From contig NW_001865039.1 of NCBI RefSeq assembly GCF_000002865.3, forward strand, positions 616,527 to 680,526: a stretch of 64,000 nt of DNA. Reading direction: 5' to 3'. Below the pieces are notes generated by a model. The model ran no database searches. It was not told the origin of the DNA and saw only the letters and a program-made list of their open reading frames with translations. This DNA is from Monosiga brevicollis MX1 (Eukaryota > Opisthokonta > Choanoflagellata > Craspedida > Salpingoecidae). Made by a program: the position numbers and the translations under genes. Shown here in pieces: positions 11,675 to 56,569 of the stretch (within the stretch, counting starts at the first letter, position 1; each line of letters starts with the position of its first letter).

Positions 11675-14600
11675 ATGGCACTGGCCGGCGAGCACTTGAT
11701 GGTCAGTCTGCACTGTTGTCGCGTTCAAGCTGGTGTGGCTGCACCTCACTTTTCTTTTGGGGATTTCCAGGAGCGCGGTCTGGCCCGCCATGATTCCGAA
11801 GAAAGCGCCTCGCTCCAAGTCCCTTTGAGCTTCCCGTAAGACTTTCAACGAACCCATTGCTCCAATAAGATTGACGCTTCTCTGCTCCAACCGATTTGTG
11901 CCACTCTCACACTCAAGCGCTTGTTTGGTACCCCTTTGACCGGCCTGCGACTACAGCATTCCCACGCGTGCCATCGCCGCCGATTCCCCCGAAGTATGTA
12001 TGATTTTGCGCTGTTTTATCAACCAAGCTGCTCTTGGTTGTACCGCTCTTGGCTATGCGCCGATGGACCGCCCAAGCGTCATCTTGCAACATTTGACCGC
12101 GCTATCGTTCAGCATGCGCCATTCTCACATCCCACTTCATTCTCCCATATCACATAGTTTGGCTGGTCCTCGTCGATTCGCTCAAGAAGAGGCAGTTCGC
12201 TTTACAAGCCCAAAACTTCCCAGAACCAGTTCAAGCTGCAGACTGGCCAGATTCGTCATAGCCGGCGCCGCAAGGTACTGTTGTTGCCACGCTCTCCAGC
12301 TGTCTGCCTCAGTAGTCGCTTTCGCTCCAGGCGCTGGGCTTCGCTTCCTCCTGCCACCGGCTTATACACCACACTCTCTGGGCTTTGACCCTTGTTGCTT
12401 CTGTTACCCGTCAATTACGATTAGGGTGAACGCTTCCGGCATCATTCCATGCCTGACTTGCGCGTGCCCTTCGATTGGGTCGACGATGCCGTGGTGCGGG
12501 TTTTCTTTCCCCCCTTTTTTTTTCACTTTGGACACCAACTCAGCTTGGTCTTGAGATACTTTCCCGTCTAGCTTCCATTCATCGCCTTCTTCTCTCGGCG
12601 TTCATGTCTGATGCCATGTCATTTTGTTTGCAATGTGCATGTTCGTACGTATCCATCATCCATAGGGTGCTTTCGCGGCTACGGGTGGTGGCATCAGTGC
12701 CAAGGGCCGTCGGGTGCAATCCTTTCGTACTTCGTTGCGCAAAAATCGTAGCCAGGTCTGCGCTTTTGATTGCATCACGCTCTTCCCAACCCACTTGTGC
12801 TTCCTTGAGCTGTACTCTCACCGTCTGGTCTTGTCTTGGGATGGTGGCCTTGGAGTAGAATTTGTCCCGACTTGCTTCACCCCATCGCGTGGAATCCCCT
12901 CTTGCGATCCAGGAGGATAGGTGTGAACGCCGGGATCCGAACCTGCTGCATCCAAATGCTTCATCTACCCGTCACTCATTTTTCCTTTCTTTCATATATG
13001 TGTGTGCGTGTGTTTGCGCGCGCGCGTACCTTTTTCTTGCTTGCGGGGGGTGTAGTACGAGTGGATCGATATCACGGTATCGATCTCGACGCAGTGTGCG
13101 AGGTAGCACGCGAGGCAGTGTAAGTCACGGCGCCATACACAAAGCTGTGGTATTTCGCGCTTTGAAGTCGTGTCGCAGAGCCTTTTCTCACCTGCAGACT
13201 CTTCTTTTGGTAAATTCAGGGGTCACCGGCAGTAGGCCGGCCTGATTCCGGCCGCGGATCCATCCGCTTGGAGCGCACGCGCAGTTGGAGTCCCATCCGT
13301 GAGCTGCCAAGCGTCAATCAGCCCTCAGAAGACTACGAGAATCGTTATCAAAGCATCTTACACCGCTTTGAGCGAAACATTGTCGATTTCCGCGCCTCAC
13401 TGGATGACAGCAACACTGATGGCAGTGACACCGTGCGTATCCGTCCATGTTATGCCGACATCAATGCTTCTTCAACGGCGCACGGCGTCATGCAGCGCCA
13501 AACGTGCAGGATCAGGCCATTCTTGTACTTATCAAGACCCCGGTGTGGCTTTGTGGCGTCATAGGCAGCCCAGCTCGGCTTGGTTCGCGAGCAGTTAAAG
13601 TTGAGCGTCCAGGAGATTATCGAGTGGTGCGGCAAGCAAGAAATGAATAGCCAGTTCTTGTCACAAACTTCAGAGCTCCTCGTCAAGCTGATGGAGCATT
13701 GCTCGCCGGACGACCCAGCCGTGACCAAAATTCGCACCCTTCTTCGTTACATTGCCACGCCTTTGCGCTTTTTAGAGTGTCTCGAGCCGGGTGTCGAAGA
13801 GGAGGGTACGTGTGAACACTCATGCATGACGACGCTTCTGTGTTCGAGCTTGGCCATGACGGCTGCCCTGTCCATCTCTACTCATCATTTTGGATCGTGC
13901 GCGTTGATTGGCATGGCGCAGAGTTGACGGATGACACCGCCCATGATATGCTGCTTGATCTCATTATCGGTGCTGATACGGGCGACAACAAGCACATGTC
14001 CAACTACATTTCCAGCCGTATGGTGTCAAACTTTGGTCCCGAGGATGCCGATGACCAGCAACAGAACTTTTACAAGCCTCAAGAGGGACTATTGCAACAA
14101 GGTAAACGTTTCCTCCAGCTTGGCCGACTGCCAACCAAGCATGACTTCAACTTTGTCAAGCTCCTCAGTGCCGGGGCTTATGGTGGCGTCTGGCTGGCCG
14201 TGCACCGTGACACGAGCGAGCGCGTGGCCATCAAAGTCTTGAAGAAGAAGGATATGATGGACAAAAATGTAGTGCGACAGGTCATGGCCGAAAAGAATAT
14301 TCTGCAGTTCGCTCGCAGCCCATTTCTGATCAATCTCTGGTGCTCCTTCACGACCAAAGAGTCGCTGTACATGGTGATGGAGTATGCATCGGGCGGTGAT
14401 CTGGCGGCTTATCTCAAAATGTGTGAGCGCCTTCCCGTGGACCAGGCCCGCCGATACATTGCCGAAACTATCTTGGCCGTCGAGTACATTCACGAGTTTG
14501 GAATCGTGCACCGTGACCTCAAGCCCGACAACCTCGTCATTGCGGAGAACGGCCATATCAAGTTGACTGATTTTGGCCTCTCCAAAGTGGGTGTCATGAA

Positions 14601-17600
14601 TCGCACGAGCGTTCTCGAAGAACATTCAGGTACGGTTCACACGGCGAGGCACAGCCTGCATTTGGAGATGCCTGCCTCTCGTTGTTGTCATATTTGTGCT
14701 TCAGCTTCTCTTCGCACAGTCTACCGTTGACGTTTGCGGCCCCACCGTGCTCACCTTGACTTTCATGATGCTTTTTCTTTCGTGTCTGTGGCGCAGTTGC
14801 CGGGGTGGCCGACTTCAAGGACAAGCAACGCTTGGGCACACCGGATTACATGGCACCGGAGGTCATTACAGGTCAAGGCTACGGCAAGGCGGTTGACTGG
14901 TGGGCCATTGGCATCATTCTGTACGAGTTCCTCTACGGTGCCCCGCCCTATTCGGGTGATACTGTTGAAGAACTGTGGGACCAAACCCTGAATGCCCCCG
15001 TTGAGTTTCCTGAAGATGATGAGGACGACGAGGACGAAGAGAATAGGCAGGATCCCTATTACGTCATTCCAGAGGCCCGGGATCTCATTGAGCTTCTTTT
15101 GGAAAAGGACCCCGCTCGCCGTTTGGGTACCCCGCCACCTCCATCCCACCTCGCATCCTGGGAGCAGGTCATGCCTGGGGCCTACTATGTCAAGGAACAT
15201 GTCTTTTTCGTCGTCGAGTTGATGCACGAAGAGGGCGCCATCGATTGGGACAACTTGCTGCTCGAGACGGCGTGCTTTGTGCCCGTGCTGGACGATGATT
15301 TTGACACGTCCTACTTTGACACCCGCCAAGATCGTTACAACCACCAACTCAGCAGCTCCTCCTCCGACGAGGAGAGCAATGACAGCTCGTACCAGGGGGA
15401 TCAGTTTCACAACTTTAATTGCATTCACCCATCCTCGGCCTCGGCCACCCCAGGCCCCGGAAGCTCGCCGATCATGAGTCGCAGTCGGCGCGCCTCACGA
15501 ACCATCAACGCCCTGTTGAACGACAGGCACGAGGGTGCGAGTATCATGTCACCGCGGTCACCGGGTGATAGCATTCGTTACCTGCCTCGCCCCTCCAGCC
15601 AGCAGTCGACGCGCCCGGTGCCCCTCGAGCCGGACCGCCGACAGGCCAGCCAGTCAGCGCCCAGCTCCCCGCCTGCCGTCTCTCGCAACAACTCAAGCCA
15701 CGATGTCTTTAGCTTTGCCACCCCGGATACAAGCCCCCGCCTCGAGCGCAAGGATTCGCAACCCGTTTCCAACCTGGCGCACGAGCTCAAGCTGCGTCTT
15801 ACGCATCCGCGTCCCACTGTCAAGGTCGAGGATACAGCCAGCAGTCAGGCACCCGGGGCAACAGCTGGTCTGGCCTCGCCGCTCAGCTCCGGCACGACGT
15901 CCGAAAGCAATTCTCGCACGGCTTCCTTGCACCAGGTGGAGCGGCGCAAGGAGTCTGGCTTTGGCACTTCGTCGCCCAGTTCGCTTAACGTGACGGTCGA
16001 CGAGCCCAGCCCCTCGGTCATCCGCATTTGTTTACCGTTTGACGAGCAGATGAAGTACGGGTTTACGATCCGAAACACTTTCATGGGTGCGCGCAAGCAC
16101 CGCGTGTGCCGCGTCGCGCCTGGCAGTGCGGCAGAGAAGAAGGGAATTCGACCTGGCTTCGCGCTGTTGCGCGTGGATCACAAGGATGTGACCAAGTTAC
16201 GCCAGCAGCAAGTTGGTCGCATGATGCAGGCCTGCTGGGGTCGTGAAACCGTGCTTGACTTTGAAATGCCGAGCAAAGCGTCTCGCAAGAGCAAGTCACC
16301 GCGCGTTCGAAAGAGCACGTCCTTGACCTCGTCTCTGCGCCGGTCTCTACGTCGTCGTAAGAGTACTCGTGACCTTTCCAAGTCACCTTCTGTCACCGAG
16401 TCACCCAACAACTCCCCTGCGGGCAGCCTCCACAAGTCCCCTGTCAGCAGCTTGCGGGCCACACGGACGGCCAGCAATCTCAGCACGGCCACGCTGTTTG
16501 ACAACGTCGGTCCCAACAACGAGTTGGAGGTTGGGCCAGAGGATGGTCGAGCTTCTCCATCTTTTGGACGCACAACGAGCGATTATGGCCGCCTCCCAGA
16601 GCGGCGCCAGTCTGGTGGCGCGACGCGGGGTTCGTTACGACGCATTTTGCGGCGCTCGCGGCGTGGGTCGTCAAGTCCCCGCAGCGAGTCTCCCATCAAC
16701 GGCCGCCATCGCGAGTCATTCAGCCAACCACCCGAGCTGGATCGCTGGCCACGGCGTGTGGAGGAGGAGAACGGTTTTGTCTCGGAGCATCGCGAAGCCA
16801 CGAGCCCTCCGCAGCGGCCCCACTTCCCGCGCTCTGCGCGCCGGTCCTCGCTCGGTGCCATCACCGTGTCGTCTCCCTTGGGCCTTTCGCCCTCCTCGTC
16901 GCCCTTGTCAGGGAGTCCCACGCGAAGCCCAAACCCTGTGGCTATGGCATCGGGTGCCATGCCCGAGCCCATGTCTCCAACTGTGAACAGCGGAGGTCTG
17001 CATGGCTCGAGTGCTATACCCACTGCCGTGCCGAGCAACGCGGGTGGCGTGTCGAGTGGAGGCGTTGGGATCACCTCACCACTTCAAAAAGAACGACGAA
17101 GCGGTAGCTCACGGCAAACGAGCCCGCTCTCGTCACCATCACACACGCCACCATCGACGCCGCGTGCTACCAAGGTTCATCAACACGTGAGCGAGCATTC
17201 GAGCTTGCGCATGGCCATGTCGCCACGACATCTACGTGAGGGGGCCACGTCTACGACTTCGCAGTCCACCGCAGCCTCGGTAGCTTTGGCCTCAACTTTG
17301 AGCCCCACGCCCCGTATGGGGATCCATTCTCCTTTGCTGAGTGCCAACGTGCCTCCCCGCTCCCCGGCCGAGTACTCGGAGCCGGAGTTGGAGGTTGCGT
17401 CTACCCGTCACCTCTCACTGGAGCATGCCCAGTTGCAGCAGCATGTGTCTGGGCAGCCGCAACATCGCCACTCGGCCTCGTCTCGGCTGGCTTCGACTCC
17501 AGCCCACGAGTCGGACGGTGCGTCACCAGAGCGACCGCCGGCATCCCGAGGACAGCGTTCTTGGGAGAACGTCGTCTTGCAGCTCGATGCCTTGTTGAGC

Positions 17601-48249: not shown

Positions 48250-49482
48250 ATGGCAGCAGGGATCCTCGCCGTGGTTTTCGCGCTGATTCTGGTCGCTGCA
48301 CCGGCCCCTGAGCAGGCAGGCAAGGTGGACAGGTGTGATGATGAGGTCAAGGCTGCTCAAGTTGTGGTCACGCGCCGTCTAGATCAACTCAAGCGACATC
48401 GGTTAGTAGCGTCTCCTTCACTTGGCTCCACAGCGCTTGCTTGCATGTAAGCTTGCCAGGTCGAAACTCGCCTCTGCCTCAACATCCTTCTGCTCTGGTT
48501 ATTCGCGCTCTTGACCCTGACAGGGTTGCAACACCTTCGCCCTCTGGAGCACTTTCGACTCTGTACTTCTTGCATGTCCCAAAAACCGCGGGCACATCCA
48601 TGCTACATGCCTTCCTCGACGCGGTTGCCACAAGTCAGGACAATGCGGCCGACCGCTCCATCTTGCGCTGCCATCGGCATTTGGATCTATCCAACTGCTT
48701 TATAGTCTACAATGCGACCTCAGCCACGCAGTGCACCGGTGGAAGGCCAGCGGCTTGCGGCTATGTGCTCACCCATGCTGGATTGGATGTCACCTTTGCC
48801 ATGCGGCGAGATGTGCTAGCCGTGACCATTCTGCGAGATCCTGCCTCACGCCTGCTGTCCTACTACAACTACCTCCGTCGACCAGCCAACCCGAGTGCTT
48901 TTGCACGCTGGTATAGGGCATCTCCACAGCGGGCGCTCGACAACATCATGACTGGCTACTTGGCTGGCGAGGCCATGGGTCCGGCGGGTGCACTTGTCGC
49001 GCCCGTCTGGCATCCCATTACAAACGCATCGCTCGGTTCTGCCAAACGCCACTTGATCTCGGCAATTGACCTCTGGGGGTTTCAAGAGGATTTGAATCCT
49101 TTTCTGCGCTGGCTCGCCTACCTGTGGCCACATCACAACGCCTCCAAGCACATTCATGCCATGACAACGAGCAAGCGCTATCAGCCGCATGAGCACGGCA
49201 CCCGTGGCATTGAGAGCTCAGCAATGCCAGCCCATTCTACTCCGACCAACCTGCAGATCAAGCACCTGGACGAGGTCCTTCTTTCAGAGGTCTGTGATCA
49301 CATGCTTTTTGGGTTGATCGGTCAGGGTGGAGAGCAACCAGGCTGACACCGCATTTTCTCTTGGGGCCCAACCCTGCCGGTAGATTCGCCGCCGCAATGC
49401 TATCGATCACGAGTTGCTGACCTTTGCCCGTCGCGTGTATGAGGGCACACCTGCCATCAAAGACCCGACGCTGGATGTTTAA
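48250..49482 (+). CDS. Golgi-type carbohydrate sulfotransferase (Sulfotransfer_2 / HS2ST-like)
   Basis: Three exons, 48250-48401, 48524-49289 and 49384-49482, give 338 residues. An N-terminal hydrophobic segment (GILAVVFALILVAAPAP) is a signal anchor or signal peptide. The 5'-phosphosulfate loop is FLHVPKTAGTSMLHAF and the 3'-phosphate-binding element is TILRDPASRLLSYYNYLRR. This order and spacing are those of PAPS-dependent 2-O, uronyl and related carbohydrate sulfotransferases acting in the Golgi lumen. Two or three N-glycosylation sequons (NAT, NAS) fit a lumenal enzyme. The substrate cannot be read from sequence. Reading through the second donor would replace the conserved C-terminus (HELLTFARRVYEG) with about 18 unrelated residues. 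Confidence 0.85.
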
Positions 49483-49783: not shown

Positions 49784-52700
49784 TCAAAGCCGACTCTCGC
49801 TTTGATTCGTGTCCTCTAATGTCGGGCTTGGGCTCAATATTAAGCGTGGGGTTGCCTGAGAAGCCGGTAAAGCAGTGGGCGTGGCAGCCGCCTGCGACAC
49901 GCCCACCGCAACCCACTTGTCCTGAAGTTGGGCAAAGGTGGGGCGATGCATTGGATTCAGGTCGATGCACCATCTCATCACGCTTGCCAATGCCGGGGGG
50001 CAGTGAGCGGGCGGTTCAAAGGCGGGAGCTCGAGCTTGCATTTCCACATGGTCACCGGAAGATCCTAGGCTAGACCTTCTCTGACGAATCAACCCCGAAC
50101 TTTTGCGGGAAAGCTCCACAAGTAGTCCCATAAAAGCTGCATCGTCAAGATGGGCTAGCGGCAAATCATCTTCAAAAAGTTCGTGCATCAAAACTCCATA
50201 CGCATACACATCAGTAGCTTCGTTGGCCATCTTGTCCTTGAGCATTTCCGGCGCCAGCCACCGCAAGGGCAAGGGCCGCGAAGTCTGAATGCCTATTTGA
50301 AGACCACGGGTCGTGAGTTGTAACTGCCGCAAGTCACCTCGGATGGTTTGTCGAGAACGCACGGTAGTATTCGGAGGCCCCTTCATGAGATACAGCTGTG
50401 GCTCGGCTCAGGCCATAGTCTGACACCTGGATATCGACCCAAGAAAATGAGCATCGTGAGATTGGAAAAAAAAAAAAAAAATTAATAAATAAGAACAAAA
50501 GCAATGCCGCCTTGTGCATTCAAACATTGCAATTTGTCGCGATCTGACCTTGACGGAGCTAAGGTCGCCTGAAACAAGCACTGCGTCGGAGACGAACGGC
50601 GAAACAATGACATTAGGTCATAGACAATGTGCACATGGGAACATCTTCCTTCTTCCCGCCAACCACCTTTCCTTTTGTCAACCAACAAACAATGTGATGC
50701 ACATACAAACCATTGCGAGCTGCAAGGTCACGATGCACCACGCCGCAGCGCACGAGCTCAGCCATGCCGTTTGCGATGGAATGGAGAACATGGATGGACA
50801 AGTCTGTGTCAAGCGGACGTGCATGGTGGTCGTCCAGCCAATCAGCGAGGGAGCCACCATCCAGATACTCTATCACCAGGCCGGGATGGGCGTCGTCATC
50901 CACCACGTGCAGCAATTGTACCAAATTGGCATGCTTTAATTTTCGCATCGTGGTCATTTCCTGCACAAACTCGTCCTTCACTTCGGAATCGAGCAAGCGC
51001 TTGACGGCCACCAGACGCTGCTTCCGTTGATCCTCGCTGCTGATACCCTCCAACTCCATTAACATAACCTCGCCAAAGGCACCGGCTCCCAGATTGCGCA
51101 CAAACTTCAGACGTGAATAATTGATGTAAAAATTGCGCTGTGGGTTGCAGAGCTCTTCCACATCGACGACCAGGCGGCGAAAATCGGCCACGAGCTGCTG
51201 CGACCCCATGACAACGTCGCAGCGACGTACCACGTCTTGGACCAAACGATCGCTGGCAAAGGCATGTCCAAAAGCTACGCCGGCCTCTCGGATCACGCCT
51301 TGCAATTGAGCCAGAGCTTCACGAAAAGCTTGTGCCAACTCCGGAACGTGCTTGATGTGCATGCCTGAAACTTTGAGCAGTCCGGCACCAACCCGACAAC
51401 AGCTGAGGCTCAGACCACTCACTGCTAGACCACGGTGTGCCATGTAATCGAGCCAGGAAAGGAGCTGGGCGCATAACCATTGCCGGAGTCGAAAAACAGC
51501 CGGCGTTGGGGCCAATTGTGTCAAGATAGGAAAGTCTTGCACAACCAAAGCTTCTTCCCACCCCTCGTCCCCATAAAGGCGCGTGTGAGAGATGACAAAC
51601 TGCTGGTGGGGATGTCGCAGCTGGTTGGCAAGACGACACGAATTTGTCCAAGTGGCCGAGTCCTGGTCACGTCGAACCAAGGCCACTAAAGAGGTGTGGC
51701 TCAGCTGCGCAGCATTTGTCACAACTTGCACGGCATCAAATCCACTCGCCAGCGCCCGTCGCCGTCGCACCTGAACGGGCAAATTGGGAAAGCTCAGCTT
51801 CTCCTCATGCTCGAATGCCCACTCACATTGCAAAAGTTGCTGGTAGATGCTACGAAATGCGGGGCGCTCTTTTGGATCTGCCGCGATGCATTCAGTATAG
51901 AGCGCGGTAGCAGCCGGCAAGTTGTGCGTTTGAGGCAAGGGTGGCAGCTGTGCTTGCCGTTGTCGCATGAGCACTTGCTGGCCATCCAATCCGGCAAAAA
52001 TGGGGGTGCCATTGGCCATCACCTCGTACATCAAAGCCCCATAGCTAAAAACGTCGCCGGGGTTGGTGGGATGTGGGCACAACAGAAGCTCAGGGGCAAA
52101 GTACCGCGTACTGCCCCACGTCGCTGGGTCCCACACAGGTACGATTGTATGGCTTTCCGGCTTGATAGCTAGGTCCTCTTGATCTGGCACAGTGGGTGTT
52201 GCAAAGCCGAAGAGCTTGACCAGCGGGGCATTGTTCATCACGAGGACACTTTCGGTACAGACACGACCATGAATCAGCTTCAAATCCTCCAGAAAAGACA
52301 ACCCGGCCGCCAGCTATCGGCACGATAAGCAGAAATAATGTGAGAAAGCGATCGATGAGATGTGAACTGGCTGAATGCCGAGTGTCATGGAAACCCTCAC
52401 CGCGACCATGCCACACACACATACACATACGCGCGCGCACGCGTTCGCACCTGCAATAGAATGCTCTGCTTTTGGGCAAGCGCCAGAGGAGCCACAGAGG
52501 CCAAGTGTGCTTGCAAAGTAACTGCTGTGGCCGACCCTTCGAAAAGCAGGAGCCCAGTCTGATCGGTGTTGGTTGTAAAGGCCTGTAGCGATAAGATGTA
52601 GGAACTGCGCTGTGTCATAGCGTGAAGCGCGGCTTGAGCCCACGCACGCTGACGGGCAGCCGGGTGAAGGTCTCTGCTGCAACGCACACACAGCGCTGGT

Positions 52701-54810
52701 TGTCCGCGAAATTGGCAGTGCCGGAAGGCTGAGTTTTCGATGGCTGGGCCAATATGTGTGGGGCGTGCCCGCTGGTTCAACAGCTGAAGCCAAGCTCTGG
52801 GAAGATCTTCAAAGTTAGCTTGCGGATAGACCTGGCGGAGAAACCGGATGTTGGCTTGCACAGACACCTTGACCTGGCTGGCCTCGGTTCGACGGTTGAA
52901 CCAAAGGAAGCCGGCAGCACCTAGACTGAGAGAAACAAGGACAACAATAACAATGACAACCAAGAGGATGGTGGAAGCCCGCGATTGACTGCCAGTGGCT
53001 TGCGGTGCAACCGAGCTCAAAGATCCGAACGGCGTCGTCGACGAGGAAGTGGTGGGGTGATAGATCAAGGCATCATAAGCGGCGGCAAATTCTTCTGGAG
53101 TCTGACGAGCTGGCAGCACATCCGAAGTTTGCGCAGGACTCCCGGCGATACCAAGCATGTTCCCCTCGACAACGCGATACGTGCCAGTAATGTTGGCATC
53201 GGTGTTGAGCTGTCGATGGTCACGGGCGGTGGCGCTGATGTAGACGTAGGGCGCAGACGCATCTCGATTTAAAATCATGCTAGAGCAAGCGCATGGAAGT
53301 GTGAGAACACGGGCCGGCTTTACATTAAGCGGGGGAAATTTGCTTTTGAGTTATCAGCGCATGCAACTGACCGGCTGGTGCTTATGCCGGCGTGAAGCTC
53401 CAGCGTGTGCCAGCTGCGCACGACGCCGTGCCATTCGTAACAGCTTTGGTTGAGTGCCAATTGGGAGTCAGAACGGACAACGCCGCGCACTACAGACATG
53501 TTGGCGCCCTGCAAGCAAGCAAAGGTGGGCCATTCCGGGGTGATGGTCTGCGAGTCTATGAAAGCGATTCGAAAGCGGCATCCAGCTTCATCCTCCCCAT
53601 CGGGACATTGGGCGGTGCCGTCACATATTTCCGTTGGATCGAGGTGAACGTTGGGCGCAGACAAACAAGAAAGTCGTGGCATCACGGGGGGTGGACAGAA
53701 GGGAGCACCGGAATAGGGCGGGTCGTAACAGTTGCAGTGGAGAGCCAAAACCGCCGTGGGGTTGACCATACCGATACAGGTAAGATCTGATGAGGCGATG
53801 GTGATGGGATCCTCATCCGGTGGGGTCAGCAGCAGGTCCGTTATGTTGAGGATTCGCCACCAAGCATCATACGCCAAGGCCCGGACTTGAGTGTCAAATG
53901 AAGTGATGCCAATCAGCATGGTCCGAAGACTCCCGGCTTGAGGCAAGACGGTGTGATCGATTTGGGCAGGGCCGGTAACGGCAGTGATTTGAAAGTACTC
54001 CAGATGAGGAAAGGAAAGGCTGAGCCCTCGCAGGGATGCCATGTCTTGAACCCAGAAGCTGTCGAGATAACGCATGTGAGGAAATACGGGTGGGACTTCT
54101 GCCCAAACCAAGTCGAATATCGTGTTGTCTGAATAGCGCAAGTATTCCAAAAGAGGGTATCTTGTGGCCAGGATTGTCAAATTCAGAGCCAGATTAGATT
54201 CCAGCCCACGTACAGACCAGCCTTTCAGCCTGGGAGCCACGGGATAGAGGGGTGCGGCGCGGACGCAATCGACGAGCTCGATAAAGCTGAGTGCCGGAAG
54301 CTCTGGCAGCTTTGAAGGGGAGACTTTGTCGGTCAATTCGAAAAGAGTGAGCACGGTGAGCTGCGTAAGATTGGCCAATCGATCCAGCCTGGGGCTCATC
54401 TCAGTTTCTGGCGGGAAAGAGACAGCGAAGGATGTGATATCCCAAGCAAGGCCTCGTGGTATGGCCTGGGCATTGGAACAATACCAATCATACTCCCCAC
54501 GAGGCAAGATCTGATGAGGACGGCAATTGCGCAGTGCGCTGGAGGGTAAACAGGACCCGGTCCAGGTGTCGCCTTGACATTGCAGACTCAGGGGCACGTC
54601 AGGAGAGCAGGTGACGTTGCACATTGCTAGGGTTTCAAGGCTCCCAGAACAGGTTTGTCCATCAAAGCGCGGCGGTACAACGGGGCAAGTCGCCACGGCA
54701 CCCGAGAAAAGACTGATGAGAAGAAGAAGAAGAAGAAGAAGAAGAAGAAGAAGAAGGGGAAGAGAACGCCGCCGGTCGAACAGCGGCGCTGGAGCAGCAG
54801 CACCAGCCAT
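49784..54810 (-). CDS. Receptor tyrosine kinase with degenerate kinase region(s) before the catalytic kinase
   Basis: Six minus-strand exons: 53372-54810, 52451-53279, 50711-52313, 50549-50580, 50363-50426 and 49784-50292. They sum to 4476 bases, 1491 residues, all phases consistent. A signal peptide with 13 or more Leu is coded by CTT repeats. It is followed by a cysteine-rich module (about 42-90), an irregular LRR-like region, an LDLa-like CDGTAQCPDGEDEAGC, a stalk, and a transmembrane helix near 583-607 (STILLVVIVIVVLVSLSLGA). Inside the cell a pseudokinase lies at about 640-900: IHGRVCTES replaces HRDLAARN and KLFGFA replaces DFG, but YFAPE, DVFSYG and KERPAF remain. A further kinase-like but very degenerate stretch lies at about 935-1130. 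Last comes a tyrosine kinase: NLGAGAFGEVML, LVAVKRL (Lys near 1194), VVHRDLAARN, SDYGLSR (DYG for DFG), a YY pair at about 1321 and LPLRWLAPE. Ligand and substrates are unknown. Confidence 0.92.
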
Positions 54811-55352: not shown

Positions 55353-56399
55353 TCATGCTGATGGGGTCGTGATGCCTGCGCTGGACACGACAAAAGGCGC
55401 CGTACTCGAGGGGTATGAAGGGGAAAAAACAAGTGTGATGGTGCGGCGCGCCAAACTGGTGCTTGCGCCACGCGGGGTGGTGCGCCGTACGAGAACCCGG
55501 TGATTAACGCAGTTGGACCAGGCAAGGCCGAGGGCAGGAACGACGGCGCGGGCGCCAGAAAACGCGGCAAGGCCCGTCGCATCCACGTGATCGGACACCT
55601 GGTTCGTACAGACGACGGTCAAGTTGCGCTCAGCAGCCAATGCCTTGAGCTGACGTGCAAAGTCCAAGATGGTGTTGGCGCGATGGTGCATTTCAGACAG
55701 TTGAAAATCCCCCCGAAAGATCGCAGCCAGCGAATCGATAATAATCAGCCGCACGGCAGGACGCGCAGCACACACGCGAGGTACCTCGACCTCTAAGAGC
55801 CGCTGCAGCGCTGTTGTATCTGCGGCGCTCATGAGAAGCACACGATCGGTTGAGACGTGACCCCGCCATTCCGGATGCAGTTCCAGCTGCCCGGCCAAGA
55901 TCTCGTGCAAACGATCTGACGGAAAGTTGGCTTCCGTGTTAATGTAAAGCACCTCGCGCGGCTTGGCCTGTGTTGAAGCCACGGCTTGAGGGCTCGGTTC
56001 TGTAGTAGGTTTGGGCTGAGCGGGTATTTGGGCAGCCAGTGCCAAATGCAGCATGAGCTGAGTCTTTCCTGAGGAGGACTCTCCACAAAACTCGGTCAAG
56101 CTGCCAGATGACAAAGCTTCCCCCAACACGGCATCCACCTCGTCCACGCCCAGGCAGATACACTGCTCGCGTTGAGACCATAATTGACTTGCCTGCTGCA
56201 GCGATGGGGCCACAACCGCCGCCGCCGCAGCCCGGAGCTCCTCGAGACCGCGGGCCGACAGCTTGGTAATTTGCCGAAGCTCGGCGTCTGAGTAATGCAC
56301 TAGGTCTCCCGCCTGTTGCAAACCGGCAGCCTCAAGCCGAGCCAAGGCCTCTGGATTGGCTTCAATCTGGGCCAGCCCAGCCTCCATCTGAAACGACAT
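55353..56399 (-). CDS. XRCC3: RAD51 paralog XRCC3
   Basis: Single exon of 348 residues. Walker A is GESSSGKTQ and Walker B is VRLIIIDSLAAIFRGDF. The N-terminal helix-hairpin-like part (DLVHYSDAELRQITKLSARG) parallels human XRCC3 (VLHFSGPDLKRLTNLSS). AVVPALGLAWSNCVNHRVLV corresponds to its VSPALGITWANQLLVRL, and the C-terminus (RTITLVFSPSYPSSTAPFVV) to its RTLRVLSAPHLPPSS region. The protein would work with RAD51C in homologous recombination and Holliday-junction processing. It is intronless, unlike most neighbours. The start is the first ATG; an in-frame Met four codons later is possible. It is divergent from the sulfatase gene. Confidence 0.92.
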   Translation of the reverse strand: MSFQMEAGLAQIEANPEALARLEAAGLQQAGDLVHYSDAELRQITKLSARGLEELRAAAAAVVAPSLQQASQLWSQREQCICLGVDEVDAVLGEALSSGSLTEFCGESSSGKTQLMLHLALAAQIPAQPKPTTEPSPQAVASTQAKPREVLYINTEANFPSDRLHEILAGQLELHPEWRGHVSTDRVLLMSAADTTALQRLLEVEVPRVCAARPAVRLIIIDSLAAIFRGDFQLSEMHHRANTILDFARQLKALAAERNLTVVCTNQVSDHVDATGLAAFSGARAVVPALGLAWSNCVNHRVLVRRTTPRGASTSLARRTITLVFSPSYPSSTAPFVVSSAGITTPSA

Positions 56400-56569
56400 G
56401 GCTTGTTGTTCTTGCTCCGGGAGTGGGGAACGATCGTCCCACCGATCACCGGGGCCGGCCTCAGCTGGCCGCGACTCTTTTCCGGACCGCTCAGCTCACT
56501 CCCAAGTCTTTGCGTTGCCCCAGCATGATGCTTGCCCACTACCCTATTCTGAGGCCCACCAGTGCTCAC

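Follow-up and report, generated by a model that had tools for sequence, protein, structure and literature searches.

A 64,000-nucleotide window of the genome of the choanoflagellate Monosiga brevicollis MX1 (RefSeq assembly GCF_000002865.3, contig NW_001865039.1, positions 616,527 to 680,526 of the forward strand) contains a gene that probably encodes a single-pass receptor tyrosine kinase (RTK) with a cis-regulatory cassette. This cassette would combine a dead tyrosine kinase-like domain (PK1), a second domain that derives from a kinase and is more decayed, and, at the C-terminus, a tyrosine kinase domain (TK) with its catalytic residues. The parts of the predicted protein are, in order, a poly-leucine leader, an ectodomain that is LRR-like and includes a weak LDLa-like module, a transmembrane (TM) helix, PK1, a middle segment of ~225 residues, and TK. 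This is the RTK plan of leader, ectodomain, one TM helix and cytoplasmic TK, with the leader and the single helix (residues 582-605) called by hydropathy only. Two further genes of the same genome, here termed C21 (locus L029) and C13 (locus L030), share the PK–middle–TK arrangement among the matches listed in our searches. This receptor family from a unicellular relative of animals would lend itself to experiments on how a dead kinase acquires control over a live one.

The splice model of the window gene removes five introns of 70-137 nucleotides, each bounded by GT..AG, and its ends (54810 to 49784) and length (1491 residues) are those given by an earlier, sequence-only reading of this DNA. 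The third exon is a 534-codon open frame that extends from within PK1 via the middle segment to the HRDLAARN motif of TK, and because this one exon joins all three parts the window gene is one gene and not two. When the bases of this exon were shuffled (n=2000), the longest frame reached at most 293 codons, with a median of 113. As the real frame exceeds that of all shuffles, and as the layout recurs in two paralogs, it is not explained by chance. The motifs quoted in the sequence-only reading are present in the spliced product, both those of the kinase-like regions (IHGRVCTES, residues 770-778; KLFGFA, 789-794; YFAPE, 827-831; LRHPHQQF, 988-995) and those of TK (HRDLAARN, 1283-1290; SDYG, 1303-1306; RWLAPE, 1333-1338).

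The C-terminal segment matches the Pfam family PK_Tyr_Ser-Thr with E 8.9e-59 and carries VAVK, HRDLAARN, an activation-loop YY pair and RWLAPE, together with DYG in place of DFG (window positions 50412-50423), just as had been described for the last domain from the letters alone. The same DYG is seen in C21, and C13 has DFG. The catalytic HRD/DFG-type aspartates are retained in 3/3 TKs, and HRDLAARN and the YY pair are present in the spliced TKs of both paralogs. In each of the three TKs the YY pair is directly followed by an intron of the same phase; that of the window gene is 70 nucleotides long, and its removal restores YYRIQTSRPLPLRWLAPE. The tails following TK vary in their tyrosines, with none in the window gene, one in C13 and eight in C21, several of the last in a repeated NAYxxP-like motif. 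In the C21 tail (L029, within 1342-2532 of the minus strand) the motifs SPYLQP, NAYMRP, NAYVQP and NAYLMP are possible SH2 docking sites.

The claim that a pseudokinase follows the TM helix is likewise upheld by the profile search that had been proposed for it. The segment 605-935 matches PK_Tyr_Ser-Thr with E 1.2e-21 over profile positions 46-258, the start of the N-lobe being unrecognised. In this domain HRD is replaced by HGR and there is no aspartate at the DFG position, and APE, DVFSYG and RPAF are retained. The alignment indicates the same pattern across the family: the HRD aspartate is lost in 3/3 PK domains (HGR, HRQ and HRC), no aspartate is present at DFG in any of them, and the C-lobe motifs are kept throughout (APE, SPE or SPQ; DVF or DVY followed by GxL; RP). 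The β3 lysine is replaced in the PK of C13, the N-lobe of the window gene is too diverged for safe alignment, and that of C21 should fall within 1212 bases outside the sequence compared. Taken jointly, the three PK parts match kinase profiles at 100%.

The ectodomain proved weaker than the sequence-only reading had it. LDLa is matched with E 0.47 in the window gene and E 0.0032 in C13; no LRR family is listed by Pfam for the window gene, and LRR_8 is matched with E 0.42 in C13. Because the matches of the window gene fall below the cut-off, the terms LRR-like and LDLa-like are to be taken as impressions. The window gene and C13 have the cysteine-rich/LDLa-like module in common (BLASTP E 2e-11 over 74 columns). 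The long open frame next upstream of C21 contains a TNFR-like cysteine-rich region (E 5e-7) and, by eye, a TM helix. A GAA/CTT triplet microsatellite at window positions 54718-54757 encodes the poly-leucine core of the leader.

The paralogs were found by searching the 39.5-Mb, 57-contig assembly with the cytoplasmic part of the window gene, only the best candidates being scored. BLASTP aligns this part with C21 at E 2e-56 in a single alignment of 575 columns that covers PK, middle and TK. Its match to C13 (E 2e-17) falls into separate PK and TK pieces, the TK piece including only the end of the middle. In C13 a single 900-codon frame comprises the TM helix, PK, middle and the N-lobe of TK. Genome searches with PK plus middle of the three genes gave no further match into the middle at E<0.001 among the matches listed; a weak match (E 0.10) to the C13 middle is seen at C53:448951. 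The candidates C45:835031, C55:916907 and C49:1158059 were rejected as family members, being Ser/Thr-type kinases by eye and devoid of the layout.

In a first tree of 34 kinase rows, one of them an antisense reading that was left out of later trees, the three TKs form a clade with support 100/97 and the three PKs a clade with 93/94. Without the antisense row and three long branches the corresponding values are 98/94 and 92/83. In the 34-row tree the window gene and C21 are sisters in both clades, at 99/94 for TK and only 85/65 for PK. As the PKs group together and so do the TKs, the cassette appears to have been inherited as a unit, and the simplest reading of these sequences is that one ancestral PK–middle–TK cassette was later duplicated whole. 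An origin of PK from TK by tandem duplication, which would place PK and TK in one clade, is absent from the best trees and not rejected (p 0.08-0.32). The union of TK with the Src-Abl ancestor is rejected (p 0.007), and a grouping of PK with IGF1R is borderline (p 0.056).

The ~225 residues between PK1 and TK had been taken for another, more decayed kinase. The main comparison used hhalign and a profile built on 24 kinase rows of the same genome, none of them from the family itself. Against this profile the combined middles of the window gene and C21 match at 85% (E 6.3e-6), the alignment of all three middles at 58% and the C21 middle alone at 47%, and in each case 0/300 shuffles did as well, while 9/9 control pieces from the ectodomain stayed under 1%. 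The match begins in the N-lobe and keeps the kinase register as far as the catalytic loop, with a reduced C-lobe, and at the catalytic loop C21 still reads LEYLAARQCAPRDIRLEHCVV. By itself the window middle does not rise above shuffles (46/300 as good) and has no Pfam match at E<=10. Other profiles gave it 167/300 (25 rows) and 5/200 (a small profile), and a first comparison of the middle, with a nine-row profile and other settings, yielded 1% and 0.07%. The nine-row and 25-row profiles each held one antisense row of locus L006, the removal of which in the 24-row profile took the window-C21 pair from 86 to 85% and C21 from 50 to 47%. Against the 25-row profile the three-row alignment was beaten by 1/300 and 1/600 shuffles, the latter being an 11-column end artefact on inspection, and a control piece, 541-766, reached 7%, but it extends into PK1 and is no proper control.

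Structure prediction, also proposed with the sequence-only reading, was applied to contiguous stretches of the window gene (exon 3 and the middle segment), each as a single sequence. It gave poor models, with a mean pLDDT (predicted local distance difference test) of 35.9 and 42.3 respectively. Because even the genuine kinase regions encoded by exon 3 came out poorly, these models say nothing for or against a kinase fold. A Foldseek search with the model of the middle returned 727 matches at E<=10 and 0 at E<=0.001. The order of elements in this model, E-H-E-E-H-H, recalls beta3-alphaC-beta4-beta5-alphaE and was not counted as evidence.

With moderate confidence, the profile matches suggest that a second pseudokinase, its C-lobe reduced, probably makes up the middle region, as seen mainly via C21. 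Several observations weigh against the cassette as proposed. The middle has no Pfam match in 3/3 members; that of C13, taken alone, shows no kinase signal above shuffles (122/300 as good) and for the most part does not align with that of the window gene in BLASTP, so that, with separate PK and TK pieces, its assignment depends more on position than on similarity. In C21 the PK N-lobe and the link of the kinase part to the TM exon are unseen. The end branch of the window PK1 is long, at 3.9-4.9 changes per column, which also fits relaxed constraint. The first of these points, along with the shuffle results for the window and C13 middles taken singly, the low values of the first comparison and the uninformative structure models, would be explained if the middle were a helical spacer unrelated to kinases and the protein had a single pseudokinase. 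We regard such a spacer as possible though somewhat unlikely, in view of the C21 and window-C21 matches, which follow the kinase register as far as the catalytic loop and which no shuffle equalled, and of the silent ectodomain controls.

PK1 and the middle may control TK as JH2 controls JH1 in the JAKs, where, according to a review, JH2 restrains JH1 (PMC5770812). The anatomy, the catalytic losses and retentions and the co-inheritance of the domains are read from the sequences themselves, while the regulation is what we infer by this analogy. On the JAK model the dead domains would hold TK inactive in cis, with the middle domain best placed to restrain it because it lies directly N-terminal to TK; ligand-driven pairing of receptors would then release TK, and the released TKs would trans-phosphorylate the YY pair of their activation loops. 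The same architecture could also accommodate dead domains that serve in dimerisation or docking, or that activate instead of inhibiting. HER3 is a receptor pseudokinase that pairs with active receptors and regulates them allosterically (PMC13259870), and a positive, dimer-forming role is ascribed to JAK2 JH2 in mutants (PMC5770812). The better preservation of the C-lobe than the N-lobe in the window PK1, which Pfam recognises from profile position 46, points the same way. Nothing in the sequence speaks against such a role and the domain order suits either, yet we think it rather unlikely. That PK1 and the middle are merely non-functional leftovers tolerated in frame would agree with the very long PK1 branch and the lost catalytic residues, and is improbable given that the frames stay open in three paralogs diverged to 24-49% identity in their aligned parts and that the C-lobe motifs are kept in 3/3 PKs.

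Like the window gene, HER3, PTK7, RYK, ROR and others are TM receptors with a dead TK-group domain. In these animal receptor tyrosine pseudokinases the dead domain is the sole known kinase domain of the receptor, whereas in the window gene it shares a chain with an active-looking TK. RTKs of the families A-M, FGTK and LRTK share the M. brevicollis genome and the TK group with the window gene. Published accounts put the M. brevicollis RTKs at 88 in 15 families, one named LRTK (PMC10263333, citing an earlier catalogue), report three of nine RTKB kinases as suspected pseudokinases (PMC3584944), and describe RTKC8, unlike the window gene, with one kinase domain (PMC10263333). Two gene copies 93-98% identical to the solved RTKC8 were observed ~10 kb apart at G000:C21:293709-294522 and 303999-304854, the identity covering two exon pieces, residues 1-216 of the 247 queried. 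In the accessible parts of the literature searched (including PMC8662651, PMC3584944, PMC10263333, PMC5770812 and PMC13259870) no receptor with this cassette is described, and the 2008 M. brevicollis kinome catalogue may list the gene, even its second kinase domain. According to one review, an upstream pseudokinase sets JAKs apart from all other tyrosine kinases (PMC5770812).

Since it has a TM helix and no FERM or SH2 match, the window gene is, on its domain content, not a JAK. In the scanned segments Pfam listed neither domain at E<=10, and FERM_F2 was not found in a genome search that had no positive control. The cytosolic animal kinases JAK1-3 and TYK2 resemble it in that a single chain carries a pseudokinase ahead of an active TK and in the tyrosine pair of the activation loop, and IHGRVCT of PK1 corresponds to VHGNVCT of JAK1 JH2. 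They differ in lacking a TM helix and in possessing FERM and SH2-like domains. Of the JAK-like tandem layout proposed by the sequence-only reading for a TM receptor, the order is present, a pseudokinase preceding TK in one chain, with the middle segment lying in between: PK1 and TK are ~236 residues apart, against a linker of ~15-30 in JAKs (PMC5770812).

Whether the likeness reflects descent was examined with trees in which few kinase families were sampled. Six data sets that overlap one another place PK with JH2 (94/88; 90/89, 90/81 and 92/85; 84/79 and 84/83); three of them omit the long window PK1 branch, three have the catalytic columns masked and two include PTK7 and HER3 as control pseudokinases. 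Sequences simulated on two trees lacking this grouping recovered it in 0/60 and 0/60 cases (one data set without the window PK1, uniform model), and hence long-branch attraction under a uniform model does not explain it. Convergent shifts common to dead kinases, which that model ignores, might do so. TYK2 is moreover the second PDB chain for the window PK1, and a union of TK with JH1 is not rejected (p 0.08-0.45). On the other side, the PK-JH2 grouping is never fully supported and was left unresolved by the 34-row tree; in the PDB the C13 PK is matched best by IGF1R/InsR; and TK joins JH1 in none of the best trees, with the PK-TK clade not rejected either. JAK1 is the top PDB chain for TK only via a sum over two domains, and per domain, among the matches listed, the Src-Abl ancestor (103 bits) and FGFR3 (102) outscore JAK1 JH1 (91). 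Kinship of the cassette with the JAK JH2-JH1 pair from before the animals, by homology and not convergence, is on balance unlikely. It is an equally speculative scenario that both descend from one pre-animal tandem, which choanoflagellates would have kept under a TM ectodomain and animals moved to a cytosolic FERM-SH2 carrier docking to separate cytokine receptors. The three-gene receptor family would either represent a second, independent invention of the layout or be related to the cassette of the JAKs.

Table 1. Features of the window gene, in window coordinates.
Feature	Position	Strand	Basis
Whole gene, 1491 residues, six exons (54810-53372, 53279-52451, 52313-50711, 50580-50549, 50426-50363, 50292-49784)	49784..54810	-	Splice model with GT..AG introns, one open frame
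Exon 1: poly-Leu leader, LRR-like ectodomain, Cys-rich/LDLa-like module	53372..54810	-	Splice model, Pfam; Cys-rich/LDLa-like module by BLASTP against C13
Single TM helix, residues 582-605	52904..52975	-	Hydropathy up to 3.12 over 19 residues
PK1, about residues 665-919, spanning the intron 52450-52314	51825..52726	-	Pfam, kinase profiles, alignment
Middle segment, residues 926-1149, probable second, strongly decayed kinase	51135..51806	-	Profile-profile comparison with C21
TK domain, about residues 1156-1449, spread over four exons	49913..51116	-	Pfam E 8.9e-59, motif coordinates
32-nt exon: residues between HRDLAARN and SDYG	50549..50580	-	Splice model
Exon 3: single open frame with PK1 C-lobe, middle and TK up to HRDLAARN	50711..52313	-	Open frames, splice model

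Upstream of the gene on the same strand, a Rad51-like open frame occupies window positions 55353-56495 of the minus strand (Pfam Rad51, E 3.4e-26). On the plus strand, a 333-codon open frame at 48345-49346 has no Pfam match at E<=0.01 and contains a VPKTAGTS stretch reminiscent of sulfotransferases. Farther away, at 13816-14730 of the plus strand, lies another kinase exon, of Ser/Thr type by eye (HRDLKPDN), that scores above the PF07714 cut-off. Elsewhere in the genome, locus L059 (G000:C26:447796-448023) matches STAT_bind with 28.2 bits, narrowly exceeding the curated threshold of 27.

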